Source: Candidatus Babeliales bacterium
GTDB taxonomy: Bacteria; Babelota; Babeliae; Babelales; Vermiphilaceae
Direction of reading: 5' to 3'
NCBI GenBank assembly: GCA_020053845.1
Contig: JAGVMI010000137.1
Location: 1-5,570 of the forward strand
DNA: 5,570 nucleotides
The position numbers were made by a program, and so were the translations under genes. Positions within the stretch are counted from its first letter, which is position 1; each line of letters opens with the position of its first letter. A model generated the notes under the pieces. That model was not told the origin of the DNA. It was given only the letters and a program-made list of their open reading frames with translations, and did no database searches. Positions 2 through 5,570 of this stretch are shown one piece after another.

Positions 2-1960
2 GTGCGTCTTTTGCGGGGGTATGATGAGCCCCTGTGGTATAAAGTTCCTCATGCGTGGGCAGCTCAGGTTCAGGAAGGGTGTTTGGTGCGCGTTCCCTTG
101 CGCAAGCAGGTGGTATGTGCCCTTACTATGCGCCTAAGCTCTGATCAGCCATCAGTGCGGTTTAGCATTCGCGAAGCGATTGCGCTTGAACCGTTCCCTC
201 ATGATGCGCACTATCAAGCACTTATTACGCGCCTTGCATTTTATTATCAGCAAGAGCCGCTGTATTTTATTGAGAGAATGCGCCACTTTCTTTTGCAAAA
301 AGAGCAGCAAGAGCAAGTGATGCCTACACAACAGCAAAGCTCCAGTGCGCAGCATGTGCAGCTTACGGATGAGCAGCAAGCGGCAGCAGATTTCATAAAA
401 TCTCGCGTTACCGCTCAGGCTTATACTCCCATTGTGCTCCACGGAGTTACCGGATCGGGCAAAACCGAAGTATACAAAGATGCGATATTGCAGACGCTCA
501 AAGAAGGCAAAACAGCAATATTGCTGTTGCCTGAAGTTACGCTTGCGCTTGAATTTGAGCGGCGGTTGCGTCGCGCATGGCCTGAAGGCGTTCTGATTCA
601 TACTTTTCATTCTGCGGTATCGGTAAAGCACAAGCGTCAGTTGTGGCAGGACTTGCTTGCACAAAAGCCCATGCTTATCATTGGCGTGCATCTGCCCGTA
701 TTGCTGCCGCTAGCGAATTTGGGGCTTATTATTGTTGATGAAGAGCATGAAGTGGGATATCAAGAAAAAAAACATCCCAAGATCAATACCAAGGAAGTCG
801 CCGTGTGGCGTGCGCACTTGTACGGCGTGCCGATTGTGCTTGGCTCTGCAACTCCCTCAGTTGCAACACTATTTAACGTTAAAACTAAAAATTGGCATCT
901 CTTTCAGCTTAAAAAGCGCTTTGCAGGTACATTTCCTGCCGTCAAGACAGTGCTTCTGACAGATAAAAAAGAGCGCAAGCATTTTTGGATCAGCACACCG
1001 CTTTATGAGGCAATCAAAGATAGGTTGCGTAAAAAAGAGCAGGTGATTCTTTTTCTCAATCGCCGAGGATTTAGTTTTTTTGTGCAATGCAAATCATGCA
1101 GTTTTGTGGTTTCTTGCAGTAACTGCTCGGTAAGTTTAACGCTTCATGAACATGGCGTAATGCTGTGTCATTATTGCGGCATTACTCAGCAACAGCCGCA
1201 GGGCTGCCAATCATGCAAAGCTTCACAGGAGCAGCTGCTTAAAAAAGGGATAGGTACACAACAACTTGTAAGCATTGTGCAATCACTTTTTCCAAACGCG
1301 CGTATTGCGCGTGCCGATCTCGATACATCCTCCAAGAAAAAAGAATGGCAGCATACAGTAGATGCTTTTACGCGTGGCGATATCGACATTATGGTGGGCA
1401 CTCAAACAGTGACCAAGGGCTATGACTTCCCCGGCGTAACGCTTGTGGGAGTGGTGTGGGCAGATCTTAATCTTAATTTTCCTCGCTACAATGCAGCAGA
1501 AATCACACTTCAGCAATTAATCCAGGTAGGTGGGCGCGCAGGCAGACATCGTGATGCAAGCACGTTAATTGTGCAGGCTATGGGGCACCATGCCATTTTT
1601 GATTATCTCAATGAGATTGATTATCTCTCATTTTATGATCAGGCCATGGTATCGCGATTGGAGCTTGGTTATCCTCCGGCAAAGCGGCTTATAGAAATTG
1701 AGCTTAGGCATGAGAATGCCGAGCTTATTGAGGCTGAAGCGCAATTGCTTGCAGCACAACTTGCACGGCTTGCGCTAACAAAAAGCGAAGATATTATAGT
1801 GCTTGGCCCTGCTAAGCCGCCGGTGCACACGATTGCACGTGTGCACATGCGTACAATCTATATTAAGGGGCCATCAATGGTTGATCTGATTGCTCTGTAT
1901 GTGCAGGCGAAGGCACATTCTTATATGAGTTCGCTTTTTCTAACACCTGGTCCAGTGTAA
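2..1960 (+). CDS. priA: Primosomal protein N' (PriA) replication-restart helicase, 5' end cut by window
   Basis: PriA is an SF2 3'-5' helicase that recognises stalled forks and starts reloading of the replicative helicase. Residues below count from the codon at base 2. Visible are an N-terminal 3'-DNA-binding-like region (about 1-100), Walker A GVTGSGKT (148-155), Walker B box DEEH (246-249), GSATP (281-285), and eight cysteines as four CxxC pairs (363/366, 372/375, 389/392, 402/405), the PriA signature for two structural zincs. GTQTVTKGYDFPG (466-478), QVGGRAGR (508-515) and a PriA-like C-terminal domain ending TPGPV follow. Aligning LWYKVP with E. coli FDYLLP suggests about five residues are missing, so the real start probably lies just before the window and GTG at base 2 is internal. 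The protein is about 75 residues shorter than the E. coli one, all between the 3'-binding region and helicase lobe 1, where the winged helix should be. Family assignment is very secure. Confidence 0.96.
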   Translation: MRLLRGYDEPLWYKVPHAWAAQVQEGCLVRVPLRKQVVCALTMRLSSDQPSVRFSIREAIALEPFPHDAHYQALITRLAFYYQQEPLYFIERMRHFLLQKEQQEQVMPTQQQSSSAQHVQLTDEQQAAADFIKSRVTAQAYTPIVLHGVTGSGKTEVYKDAILQTLKEGKTAILLLPEVTLALEFERRLRRAWPEGVLIHTFHSAVSVKHKRQLWQDLLAQKPMLIIGVHLPVLLPLANLGLIIVDEEHEVGYQEKKHPKINTKEVAVWRAHLYGVPIVLGSATPSVATLFNVKTKNWHLFQLKKRFAGTFPAVKTVLLTDKKERKHFWISTPLYEAIKDRLRKKEQVILFLNRRGFSFFVQCKSCSFVVSCSNCSVSLTLHEHGVMLCHYCGITQQQPQGCQSCKASQEQLLKKGIGTQQLVSIVQSLFPNARIARADLDTSSKKKEWQHTVDAFTRGDIDIMVGTQTVTKGYDFPGVTLVGVVWADLNLNFPRYNAAEITLQQLIQVGGRAGRHRDASTLIVQAMGHHAIFDYLNEIDYLSFYDQAMVSRLELGYPPAKRLIEIELRHENAELIEAEAQLLAAQLARLALTKSEDIIVLGPAKPPVHTIARVHMRTIYIKGPSMVDLIALYVQAKAHSYMSSLFLTPGPV

Positions 1961-2925: not shown

Positions 2926-2959
2926 TTAGCACAAAAATACGGAGCGCGCAATGTGCTAA
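2926..2959. repeat. 8-bp perfect inverted repeat spanning the orn stop codon
   Basis: TTAGCACA (2926-2933) and TGTGCTAA (2952-2959) are perfect inverted copies separated by 18 bases that contain GCGCGC. One arm covers the TAG stop of orn (2956-2958); the other lies in the 76-bp gap before the cysteine-rich gene. In the minus-strand transcript it could form a stem-loop after orn, acting as an mRNA end, a 3' stabiliser or an operator. No good T-run follows the outer arm, so a standard intrinsic terminator is unlikely. No convincing sigma-70 promoter pair was found in the rest of this gap. Confidence 0.35.
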
Positions 2960-3504
2960 GGGTTGCAAATGAAAAATGTATTGCGATAATGCTTGAGTTC
3001 TTCTATCGATGCCTTTACATCATCAAGAGCGCGATGCACTTCAGGTTTTTTGAATGATGTCTTTTTGTTATGGGGATACCAGCGCTGCACCAATGTTTTT
3101 ATGGAACTTACATCCACAATGCGATAATGCAGATATTCAGTGATTTGTGGCATGTAGCGCGCAATAAATTCCCTATCTTTCCATATCGAGTTGCCACATA
3201 GCGGTGCGTTGCCTCGTTGGCAATGCTCTTCAATAAATTCGCGCGTTTCGCAAGCTGCCTGCTCGAGCGATACGTGAGAAGAGCGTACGAGATTGGTGAG
3301 CCCTGAGCGCGCATGAATGAGCTCTACCTCTGGGATCATAGTGCCCAGTATATCATCGGGCTGATGAATAACATGATGCGGGCCTTGTGCGATGATGCTT
3401 AAATCGTTATCGGTAATAATAGTGGCGATCTCAATAATTACATCACGCTCAGGATCGAGCCCTGTCATTTCAAGATCTACCCATACCAGGCGATTATCTT
3501 TCAT
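2956..3504 (-). CDS. orn: Oligoribonuclease (DEDDh 3'-5' exonuclease)
   Basis: Orn degrades the two- to five-nucleotide RNA fragments left by other nucleases, and pGpG from cyclic-di-GMP breakdown, to mononucleotides in the cytoplasm. The 182-residue length matches the E. coli enzyme (about 181). All five DEDDh residues are visible: D10 and E12 in WVDLEMTGLD, D110 in NSIWKDREF, and H157 and D162 in HRALDD. The family signatures CGNSI, ARYMP, LHYRIVDVSS and the C-terminal IEELKHYR are also present, so the enzyme is probably active. The start is fixed by AAGGA (3511-3515), six bases before the ATG, with MKDNRLVWVDLEMTG matching the usual N-terminus. The preceding minus-strand gene ends within this ribosome-binding site, nine bp from the ATG, which suggests one transcript and perhaps translational coupling. 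NSIWKD with Trp, where many homologues have small residues, is a minor deviation. Confidence 0.96.
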   Translation of the reverse strand: MKDNRLVWVDLEMTGLDPERDVIIEIATIITDNDLSIIAQGPHHVIHQPDDILGTMIPEVELIHARSGLTNLVRSSHVSLEQAACETREFIEEHCQRGNAPLCGNSIWKDREFIARYMPQITEYLHYRIVDVSSIKTLVQRWYPHNKKTSFKKPEVHRALDDVKASIEELKHYRNTFFICNP

Positions 3505-3510
3505 AGAGAT

Positions 3511-3515
3511 TCCTT
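3511..3515 (-). promoter_or_regulatory. orn Shine-Dalgarno overlapping the upstream stop codon
   Basis: AAGGA lies six bases before the orn ATG and overlaps the TAA (3514-3516) of the preceding gene. Ribosomes ending that gene would stop on the orn initiation site, a layout typical of translational coupling. Confidence 0.7.
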
Positions 3516-3891
3516 AGTCTATTTCCATATCAAATAATTCGCCTGAAAATCGTTTTTTTTGATCAGCGAGCTCAAGAGTTAGCACAATCCCTCTTATCGC
3601 CTTTTGTTTTAACTTATCACTTTTAAGTAAAAGACCGCTCTTAAACGGCAGAGAAGCTGCATGGGTAACATTTTTCAGTACAGGCGACTTTTTTTCTGAG
3701 CGCTGAGACGCTGTCCGATGTTTGCCAATAATTATTGAAGATTGTTGCGTGAGCATGCGTGTTAACGCTGAGTGTACATGTGGATGCTGCTGCGTCGCCT
3801 CAGGTTTTTTTTCTAAAACTTGCTGCATAGGAGCCATATAGTGTGGGTTCAAGGCTATAAAAAATAAGAACGACGCAAGCATTTTTTTCAT
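3514..3891 (-). CDS. Small basic protein with N-terminal export signal or anchor, unknown function
   Basis: I do not recognise this 125-residue protein. It begins MKKMLASFLFFIAL, a short positive start and hydrophobic core typical of a signal peptide. The obvious AxA-like site is followed by Pro (YMA|P), which signal peptidase I normally rejects, so cleavage may be elsewhere or the segment may stay as a membrane anchor. The middle (25-70) is Gln/His/Lys/Ser-rich and looks disordered; the C-terminal part (about 80-125) is Lys-rich with a short hydrophobic strand (GIVLTLELA) and an acidic end. No enzyme motif is visible. GGGAG (3899-3903) lies seven bases before the ATG and supports this start. 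It is the first gene of the minus-strand group and directly precedes orn. The clean start, signal-like N-terminus and coupling to orn argue that it is real. Confidence 0.72.
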   Translation of the reverse strand: MKKMLASFLFFIALNPHYMAPMQQVLEKKPEATQQHPHVHSALTRMLTQQSSIIIGKHRTASQRSEKKSPVLKNVTHAASLPFKSGLLLKSDKLKQKAIRGIVLTLELADQKKRFSGELFDMEID

Positions 3892-4072: not shown

Positions 4073-5570
4073 ATGCGCAAGATGAACATTGGAGTGTTGA
4101 TGGGGGGAAGATCTGCAGAGCGAGAAGTATCTTTCAACTCTGGCCGCACCATTTGCGATCATCTTGATACTGCGCGCTATGAAGTGGTGCCTATTTTTCA
4201 AAAGCAATGCGGCGCATTATTTATCTTGCCATGGCAGTTTCTGCATCGCGGGAAAATAAGCGATTTTGAAGCGCGCCTTGATGGACAAGCAGTGCGCATT
4301 ACCTGGGATGAACTTAAATTGCGCATCGATCTTGCCTACATAGCAATGCATGGGCGGTATGCAGAAGACGGTATCATGCAAGGCGTGCTTGAAGTGCTTG
4401 GTATCCCCTATGTGGGGTCGCGCATTTTTGCGAGTGCTTTATGTATGGATAAAGTTATGCAAAAGCTATTGCTTGCAGATGCAGGCATAGCAGTTCCTAA
4501 GTATGCACTAGTGCGTGCAGCGCAGGTGCGCTCTGATGGCGTGAGTTGTGTGCTTGAGCGCATGCGTGAGTGTGGCATTAGCTTTCCCTGCGTGGTAAAG
4601 CCGCGTAGTGAAGGATCGAGCTTGGGCGTAAGTGTGGTGTTTCAGGAGAGCGAACTTGAACGCGCATTGCATCATGCGGCCAAGCCAAGTGAATGGCGTG
4701 GCGATGTGCTCATAGAAGAGCGCATTGAGGGAATGGAGTTTTCGTGCGTTACGATCGTGGATTATAAAAAGGGCGAGTATTTACCGCTGCAGCCTACAGA
4801 AATTGTTCCTGATAAAGGGACGCATTTTTATGATTATGATCAAAAATATATGCCAGGCCGCGCTACTAAATTTACTCCTGCGCGCTGCAGCGCTGCAGTT
4901 ATAGAAGCGATTCAGCAAACATGTGTGAAGGTGATGCGTACGCTTGGCATCACAACACTTTCTCGTATCGATGGATTTGTAACACATGATGAGCGCATAG
5001 TAATCATCGAGCCCAATACATTTTCAGGAATGGCACCTTCAAGCTTTATTTTCCGTGAAGCTGCAGAAATTAATATGAGCCATACAAAGCTTATTAATCA
5101 TCTTATTGAAACAGAGCTACACGCACGTGGCATGCTTGATGATCTCATTAAACAAGAGCAAGAAGATAGTGCATGCAAGGGGAAATCAGGAGATAAAATG
5201 CGCATTGCGGTGCTCATGGGCGGGCCTTCAAATGAACGTGAGGTGTCGCTTGAATCAGGCAGAAATGTAGTGTACAAATTGTCGCCGCATAAGTATGAAG
5301 TGCTGCCGATCTTTGTAACACATACCATGGATTTGTATGTGATAGATAATGCATTGCTCGTGCGCAATGGCACGCATGAGATTGCACATGAATTGCATCG
5401 AGCGCAGCATATTTCATGGGATGAGCTTGCTCAACGTGCTGACTTTGCATTCAACACGCTACACGGAGGCCCTGGAGAAAATGGTGCAGTCCAAGGCATG
5501 CTTGAAATGCTCGGCATTCCTTATAATGGCGCGGGAGTGCTTGCGAGTGCACTTTGCATGGATAAATACA
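4073..5570 (+). CDS. ddl: Tandem D-alanine--D-alanine ligase (complete module 1, start of module 2), 3' end beyond window
   Basis: The enzyme family joins two D-alanines with ATP to make the dipeptide that ends the peptidoglycan stem peptide; it is cytoplasmic. The frame is open for 499 codons to the window edge. Module 1 (about 4-350) is a full ATP-grasp ligase: GGRSAEREVS with E16, HGRYAEDG (93-100), MDK with K127, VVKPRSEGSSLG (174-185; K176, S182), YDYDQKY (253-259; K258, Y259), SRID (R298, D300), EPNTFSGM (E313, N315) and S324. By alignment with E. coli DdlB every catalytic residue is kept, and Tyr259 fits D-Ala rather than D-lactate as second substrate. After a charged linker (about 351-375), module 2 starts MRIAVLMGGPSNEREVS (E388) and runs through HGGPGENG to CMDKY at the edge. 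AAAGG (4061-4065), seven bases before ATG 4073, fixes the start; ATG 4082 is too far from it. Confidence 0.93.
   Translation, partial: MRKMNIGVLMGGRSAEREVSFNSGRTICDHLDTARYEVVPIFQKQCGALFILPWQFLHRGKISDFEARLDGQAVRITWDELKLRIDLAYIAMHGRYAEDGIMQGVLEVLGIPYVGSRIFASALCMDKVMQKLLLADAGIAVPKYALVRAAQVRSDGVSCVLERMRECGISFPCVVKPRSEGSSLGVSVVFQESELERALHHAAKPSEWRGDVLIEERIEGMEFSCVTIVDYKKGEYLPLQPTEIVPDKGTHFYDYDQKYMPGRATKFTPARCSAAVIEAIQQTCVKVMRTLGITTLSRIDGFVTHDERIVIIEPNTFSGMAPSSFIFREAAEINMSHTKLINHLIETELHARGMLDDLIKQEQEDSACKGKSGDKMRIAVLMGGPSNEREVSLESGRNVVYKLSPHKYEVLPIFVTHTMDLYVIDNALLVRNGTHEIAHELHRAQHISWDELAQRADFAFNTLHGGPGENGAVQGMLEMLGIPYNGAGVLASALCMDKY
5188..5192 (+). promoter_or_regulatory. Internal Shine-Dalgarno (AGGAG) before the second Ddl module
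   Basis: AGGAG stands five bases before the in-frame ATG at 5198, the codon where a free-standing Ddl would begin (MRIAVLMGG). It lies inside the open frame of the tandem protein. It may allow separate translation of module 2, or be a relic of a time when the modules were two genes. Confidence 0.6.
5198..5570 (+). other. Second Ddl module, N-terminal domain only (protein region or possible separate start)
   Basis: From ATG 5198 the translation restarts a complete Ddl N-terminal domain: GGPSNEREVSLESG, HGGPGENG, QGMLEMLGIPY and SALCMDK. Hand alignment with module 1 gives 22 of 37 identical residues over the first block and 18 of 25 over the QG-to-MDK block, so the two are homologous but clearly diverged. 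The central ATP-binding and C-terminal catalytic parts lie beyond the window, so activity of this module cannot be judged here. The N-terminal glutamate (E388) is kept. If the reading frame is correct this is the second half of a fusion; otherwise it is a separate gene. Confidence 0.85.

Follow-up and report, generated by a model that had tools for sequence, protein, structure and literature searches.

A tandem two-module D-Ala-D-Ala ligase in Dependentiae that probably shares its fusion with the double ligase of plants

Background

The dipeptide D-Ala-D-Ala is built from two D-Ala with ATP, by D-Ala-D-Ala ligase (Ddl), and is handed to MurF. In plants the plastid enzyme is presented, in passages of a published account, as a fusion of two putative Ddl enzymes that occurs throughout the plant lineage (PMC9954125), and excerpts of another describe the plastid peptidoglycan enzymes as a patchwork that is mostly not cyanobacterial (PMC6946739). 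Here we analyze a bacterial gene with two Ddl modules in one open reading frame. It lies in a stretch of 5,570 nucleotides (the window), which is the entire contig JAGVMI010000137.1 (G000:C109 in our numbering) of a Candidatus Babeliales bacterium (assembly GCA_020053845.1; phylum Dependentiae), and the source genome comprises 822,586 bases in 148 contigs and is 66.9% complete.

A bacterial tandem Ddl is not described in the literature that we searched (on bacterial tandem Ddl, Dependentiae and plastid origins; titles, opening abstracts and passages, with incomplete coverage); in the passages concerned, PMC4814524 and PMC8871954 contain both 'Ddl' and 'tandem', and 'tandem' denotes other things. 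The plant fusion is thus known, and the bacterial tandem and its link to plants are apparently new, no paper on them having been found; public database entries already contain the sequences themselves, annotated for example as D-alanine--D-alanine ligase. We consider it reasonably probable, from the sequence comparisons below, that the protein is a two-module Ddl and built-in heterodimer, with module 1 as the likely maker of D-Ala-D-Ala and module 2 as a likely ATP-binding regulatory partner, and that the fusion is shared with plants.

Results

Two Ddl modules in one frame

The gene (4073..5569, plus strand) runs for 499 codons, stop-free, to the contig end and matches positions 1-500 of a 744-position tandem profile, representing the 5' two thirds of a tandem Ddl gene. 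Pfam finds Dala_Dala_lig_N twice and Dala_Dala_lig_C once in this frame, with both domains over cut-off. Module 1 (4073..5122, plus strand; residues 1 to approximately 350) is a complete Ddl, with one domain of each kind, as indicated by the family matches and by its place in the module 1 clade of the trees described below; it passes TIGR01205 with 256.8 bits (cut-off 245.65). Sequence and alignment place its KPRSEGSS loop, with Lys144 and Ser150 (E. coli DdlB numbering, used throughout), at 4598..4621 (plus strand) and its lid FYDYDQKY, with Lys215 and Tyr216, at 4826..4849 (plus strand). In the translation an inter-module linker of approximately 25 residues follows (5123..5197, plus strand), bounded by the end of module 1 in the family matches and by the start of module 2 in the 52-row alignment and tree. 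Met376 (base 5198) is the first residue of module 2, of which only 124 residues are present (5198..5569, plus strand; the N-terminal domain up to the Lys97 region, ending ...CMDKY), because the contig ends there. From its first bases, in the matching frame, contig C120 of this genome encodes the later part of a module 2 (L088:1-738), which extends for 245 amino acids to a stop, and it is here that the second Dala_Dala_lig_C match was found; when the contigs are aligned to relatives, the gap between the end of C109 and the start of C120 is approximately 3 residues. The two contigs would then be adjoining, with C120 likely the rest of the window's module 2.

Distribution within the phylum

The tandem profile was searched against 101 genomes of the phylum and matched in 87 (63 of the 68 with a completeness of at least 90% and a contamination of at most 5%). 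A frame crosses the module junction, without a stop inside the matched stretch, in 81 of the 101; one example is a tandem of 753 residues inside a 93,968-base contig. End-to-end two-module matches in one open frame were found in 73 genomes, and the number with the pair in one frame rises to 75 with G005, in which the pair is matched as two pieces of one 796-residue frame, and G081, in which the first 62 profile positions are missing or on another contig. The junction-crossing frame is cut by a contig edge in G000 (the source of the window), G001, G076, G094 and G096, and by unknown bases in G097; G015 and G092 show module 2 only, at a contig edge, and G077 has module 1 alone, in a 402-residue frame. 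Two Dala_Dala_lig_C matches share one frame at 39 of the 43 relatives' loci examined. The single modules of L004, the tandem protein from a genome of the window's order (G037), score 229.5 and 235.2 bits against TIGR01205, both below 245.65, and among the best 120 matches to L004 are proteins named Candidatus Babeliales or Candidatus Dependentiae (P0017, P0040, P0042, P0057 and P0075).

Separate adjacent module genes occur in G027 and G045 only (2 of 101). The first ATG of the second gene lies 5 bases behind the stop codon of the first in G027, and 11 bases upstream of it, behind GGAG, in G045. Because a relative with the same genus code as G027 (G005) and one with the same family code as G045 (G031) are fused, the simplest reading of the sequences is that both splits would be late fissions whose halves stayed side by side; we rejected two independent genes as the ancestral state on this ground of simplicity.

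The 51 nearest relatives yielded no second Ddl of comparable score: the best PF07478 match outside the tandem reached 72 bits, against 95.9-145.4 for one-piece modules. Since no outside match comes near the module scores, the tandem would as a rule be the only Ddl where a wall is made. A 653-residue frame in one genome (L087; G039:C24) carries a further, weaker Dala_Dala_lig_C match of 72 bits. MurF is over cut-off in 44 of the 51 relatives and alanine racemase in 35. In the parts of the reports considered here, Babela massiliensis (Dependentiae) is without murein genes (PMC4378268) and Chromulinavorax has a complete mur pathway (PMC6561590), which would show that wall synthesis comes and goes within the phylum, and the genomes without the tandem gene fit such a pattern. 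One genome (G046; L100) has only a decayed remnant, of the tandem's module 2, merged into another frame, and keeps MurF; co-loss of MurF with the tandem was considered and is not clean, because G011 and G046 retain MurF.

Active-site residues of the two modules

Residues were tallied over 43 module 1 rows and 44 module 2 rows from Dependentiae, with the window's own module 2 start left out; the role of each residue, including those of the Glu15-Ser150-Tyr216 triad, we take to be that given in the literature on E. coli DdlB. The triad is present in module 1 in all 43 Dependentiae rows and in 141 of 141 Bacteroidota-type rows (see below). Module 2 of Dependentiae has Glu15 in 43 of the 43 rows reaching the site, Cys150 in 44 of 44 and Phe216 in 43 of 43, and it thus lacks the Ddl triad; because Ser150 and Tyr216 are replaced, we class it as a Ddl-fold paralogue rather than a D-Ala-D-Ala ligase. 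Lys97, Lys144, Lys215, Arg255 and Asp257 are conserved in both modules, apart from one module 2 row whose residue at 144 is unknown; Asn272 is present in 42 of 43 rows for module 1 and in 43 of 43 for module 2, and module 2 retains Glu270 and Pro275. The same arrangement, E-S-Y in module 1 and E-C-F in module 2, is found in all 141 Bacteroidota-type proteins (P0122-P0150 and P0157-P0268), in the plant protein P0153 and in the metagenome protein P0151, and the two triad changes of module 2 are identical in three distant groups. The modules of one protein are 26.9-34.9% identical to each other. Module 2 is the more conserved (mean pairwise identity 56.4% versus 52.9% for module 1, and higher in 709 of 820 pairs from 41 genomes), and both modules look to be under selection.

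The original prediction had seen two Ddl modules in one bacterial frame, and this is borne out by the window frame and by the 81 genomes whose frames cross the junction. It had named two findings that would speak against it: a stop or frameshift between the modules, which did not occur at the junction in those 81 of 101 genomes, and relatives that all carry two separate genes, an arrangement confined to the two split cases with their fused relatives of the same genus or family code. Its description of a complete ligase with all expected catalytic residues stands for all but one position, Pro275, which is Ser in the window's module 1. It had also asked whether module 2 keeps the lid Tyr and the SRID and ExN residues; the Tyr is lost (Phe in all 43 rows reaching the site), and Arg-x-Asp and Glu-x-Asn are kept.

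Tandem Ddls outside the phylum

A protein search aimed at lengths of approximately 880-2800 residues yielded 36 proteins. One is a Dependentiae-like tandem (P0121), and 29 are tandems of a second kind (P0122-P0150; 881-1332 residues), including P0150 from Lewinellaceae bacterium SD302 (Bacteroidota). P0153, from Magnolia sinica, is a plant tandem Ddl with the Tyr-lid module first and the Phe-lid module second. P0151, a metagenome protein of 894 amino acids, is a plant-like tandem with an N-terminal HTH_3 domain (27.2 bits, cut-off 23), and it is closest to the plant tandem in both modules (50% and 40% identity); the HTH_3 domain suggests that P0151 comes from a bacterium with a plant-type double Ddl. 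The remaining four have a single Ddl behind Mur ligase domains. No Mur ligase domain was found in the window protein or in P0121, P0122, P0133, P0145, P0150, P0151 and P0153. Two of the Bacteroidota-type tandems, P0145 (1332 residues) and P0150 (1271), have a PASTA domain behind both modules, and in P0152 (1035 residues) a Ddl occurs together with Mur ligase domains and a stretch of leucine-rich repeats.

The profile built for the second kind of tandem, with the plant row included, matched 4286 proteins at E <=0.001, some of which are not tandems; the best 120 of the 4286 have 892-911 residues, and the 13 of these 120 with an organism name are all Bacteroidota. That bacterial Ddls are normally single modules, as had been stated at the outset, therefore understates the tandem, which is the rule in this phylum; the 120 best matches to the second profile also all have the length of a tandem. 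The suggested bearing on the double Ddl of plants held up, in that Magnolia sinica P0153 matches the bacterial tandem in its two modules, their order and their module-specific residues, and joins the bacterial module clades.

A plasmid gene of Bernardetia sp. (L105:2998-4869; 623 amino acids) has an intact-looking module 1 followed by a short, degenerate module 2 remainder. In the plasmid collection, none of the seven records covering at least 80% of a Bacteroidota tandem (among the best 12 matches listed) and none of the six covering at least 80% of P0151 (among the best eight listed) reaches beyond one Ddl length, and the viral contigs searched hold no relative of P0151. The Ddl genes of two plasmid records labelled Lysinibacillus fusiformis (L090) and Stenotrophomonas rhizophila (L091) hardly differ, with branch lengths of 0 and 0.016 in the tree, which suggests a record that is mislabelled or mixed.

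A shared origin of the module pair

An initial tree used the modules of 14 of the 43 relatives and 12 of the 29 Bacteroidota-type proteins. The more careful maximum-likelihood trees used eight of those 14 Dependentiae genomes and eight of those 12 Bacteroidota proteins, without P0121, G077 and the MurC-Ddl rows P0154 and P0155. The main tree has 52 rows (19 module 1, 20 module 2 and 13 single Ddls), with the window's module 1 trimmed and the two module 2 pieces of its genome as separate rows; in the earlier trees, in the approximately unbiased (AU) tests and in the motif-removed tree the window's module 1 row still carried the module 2 start as a tail. Module 1s, module 2s and single Ddls each fall on one side of a branch in the 52-row tree, with supports (bootstrap/Shimodaira-Hasegawa-like approximate likelihood ratio test, SH-aLRT) of 100/94, 100/100 and 100/94, respectively, the plant module 1 joining the bacterial module 1s and the plant module 2 the bacterial module 2s. 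The groups persist after removal of four stretches with the catalytic motifs (98/88, 100/99 and 97/93), and active-site convergence as the cause of the tree was rejected on this basis.

Constraining plant module 1 and module 2 to group together was rejected (a cost of 179 log units, p-AU 4e-8). The same constraint on the plant modules with P0151 cost 49 log units (p-AU 4e-5), on the Dependentiae modules 95 (p-AU 3e-6) and on the Bacteroidota modules 104 (p-AU 1e-4); for plants, for Dependentiae and for Bacteroidota alike, a duplication of their own is rejected. Provided that the root falls among the single Ddls, where it would be expected, one duplication gave both modules, and the module order common to all argues for one fusion. 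We infer from the tree that one duplication and one fusion lie behind the pair in Dependentiae, Bacteroidota and plants, and that plants would have received it already fused. The transfer would have run from bacteria to plants, given that the pair is more widespread among bacteria and given where plastid wall enzymes in general come from, with one plant sequence behind this direction. A moss Ddl is placed, in the part of the report considered, closest to homologues of the Fibrobacteres-Chlorobi-Bacteroidetes group (PMC9434261), which agrees with a bacterial origin.

Other genes in the window

No wall gene is adjacent to the tandem Ddl within the 5570-base window. A PriA-like helicase (2-1960, plus strand) begins at the contig edge and is perhaps cut, and an oligoribonuclease lies at 2956-3504 (minus strand). 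Three small minus-strand frames (1863-2315, 2331-2879 and 3514-3891; 125-182 residues) each begin with an N-terminal hydrophobic, signal-like stretch and have no Pfam or NCBIfam match; the one at 1863-2315 overlaps the 3' end of the priA-like gene.

Discussion

The two modules may have divided the work of the enzyme between them. The protein would fold as a built-in heterodimer, each module being predicted to have a complete Ddl fold and both to be held in a defined arrangement. Module 1 would be the dipeptide-forming site, supplying D-Ala-D-Ala for the cell wall, because it alone keeps Glu15-Ser150-Tyr216 and because it persists where module 2 is lost (in G077 and on the Bernardetia plasmid). 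Module 2, in which Lys97, Lys144, Lys215, Asp257, Glu270 and Asn272 are kept, would for this reason bind ATP and Mg, and perhaps a D-amino acid, and may tune or stabilize module 1.

A close rival is that both modules are active, with module 1 joining D-Ala to D-Ala and module 2, with its Phe lid, joining D-Ala to D-lactate or another D-residue. We judge this unlikely, although Phe in place of Tyr at the lid site marks, in the passages considered, the depsipeptide ligases of lactic acid bacteria (PMC5996685), and it is this shared replacement that makes the rival close; the change of Ser150 to Cys lies outside the Phe/Tyr rule as those passages give it. The usual source of D-lactate is 2-hydroxyacid dehydrogenase. 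A full-length match to that enzyme (at least 170 bits) is found in only 6 of the 51 relatives, yet the Phe is invariant; 43 of the 51 are over the family cut-off, beyond the six only with short matches of approximately 25-51 bits, in a search that covered neither other D-lactate sources nor host supply. Module 2 of L004 scores 141.9 bits against the D-Ala-D-Lac model NF000206 (cut-off 550) and scores best with D-Ala-D-Ala models, though just under their cut-offs. D-Ala-D-Lac as the main product is weakened, not eliminated, by the missed cut-off and the scarce dehydrogenase. That module 2 is instead a catalytically dead scaffold, a second dimer subunit that stabilizes module 1, is in our estimate improbable: two of the three triad residues are changed in every row reaching them, and G077 and the Bernardetia plasmid retain module 1 in the absence of a whole module 2, but a scaffold would not be expected to hold Lys97, Lys144, Lys215, Arg255, Asp257, Glu270 and Asn272 fixed, nor to be more conserved than the catalytic half.

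With respect to origin, the plant and bacterial double ligases might be separate fusions made alike by active-site convergence. The plant modules share approximately 29-33% identity with their respective bacterial counterparts, near the 25-30% seen to E. coli Ddl, and their stems are long; against this, the AU test rejects a clade of plant module 1 and module 2 (p 4e-8, or 4e-5 with P0151), the module clades survive removal of the active site (98/88 and 100/99) and the module order is the same everywhere, and we regard separate fusions as very improbable. An assembly or frameshift artefact of two neighbouring genes would fit a fragmented genome (148 contigs, 66.9% complete) whose contig ends inside module 2, but junction-crossing frames in 81 of 101 genomes leave it practically no likelihood, and the independent genomes of relatives refute it. 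A more far-reaching possibility, which we offer tentatively and with more doubt than conviction, is that a single ancient bacterial fusion continues to serve wall synthesis in Dependentiae and many Bacteroidota and was passed, fused, to the green-plant ancestor for the chloroplast wall, its second head being a working site with a fixed Glu-Cys-Phe and a job that no known Ddl has.

Several observations weigh against a heterodimer of ligase and regulator shared with plants. In module 1 the Mg ligand Glu270 is Asp in 41 of the 43 Dependentiae rows (the window keeps Glu) and in 141 of 141 Bacteroidota-type rows, position 275 is never Pro in the 43 Dependentiae rows and is Ser in the 141 Bacteroidota-type rows, and Lys144 is Arg in 26 of those 141. 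The better-kept ATP/Mg residues of module 2 and its higher conservation would speak for a second active site no less than for a regulator. Dimer-contact positions (as named in PMC6899670) are mostly kept in Dependentiae and have drifted in module 2 of Bacteroidota and the plant. No tandem-profile match was found in 14 of the 101 genomes, five of which are at least 90% complete (G011, G032, G053, G087 and G089), and in G011 and G046 MurF is present without an intact Ddl. The two plant modules point to different nearest bacteria, module 2 grouping with Bacteroidota (99/97) and module 1 falling, weakly, outside Bacteroidota plus Dependentiae (89/37); the only plant sequence in the tree has a long stem; and the AU tests, whose constraint groups were named by organism, were carried out with the tree already known.

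A fused gene is a strong marker of descent, and the ligase behind the plant chloroplast wall was likely inherited ready-fused from bacteria. If plants did take a pre-fused Ddl, then its donor should be sought among bacteria with the pair, not by single-domain identity. For bacteria, the tandem raises the question of why two different Ddl sites should stand in one chain.

Comparison with known systems

The plant plastid enzyme resembles the bacterial tandem in having two Ddl modules per chain, in the same order, E-S-Y and then E-C-F, and Magnolia P0153 falls in the same clades; it differs in that the bacterial gene begins directly with the ligase, the plant modules are only approximately 30% identical to the bacterial ones and the plant enzyme serves the plastid wall. 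Single-module Ddls (E. coli DdlA and DdlB; TIGR01205) share both Pfam domains, the ATP/Mg residues and the fold with each module, whereas the tandem has two diverged modules, the second without Ser150 and Tyr216, and the single Ddls form a third clan. The MurC-Ddl fusion (NF011171; for example, P0154-P0156) likewise places a Ddl within a longer wall-synthesis protein, but its partner is a Mur ligase, a domain that the tandem Ddls lack. The Tyr/Phe-switched D-Ala-D-Lac ligases of lactic acid bacteria, as passages of PMC5996685 describe them, share the lid Phe with module 2, which differs from them in having Cys in place of Ser150, a Tyr-type module as fusion partner and a score under the D-Ala-D-Lac cut-off.
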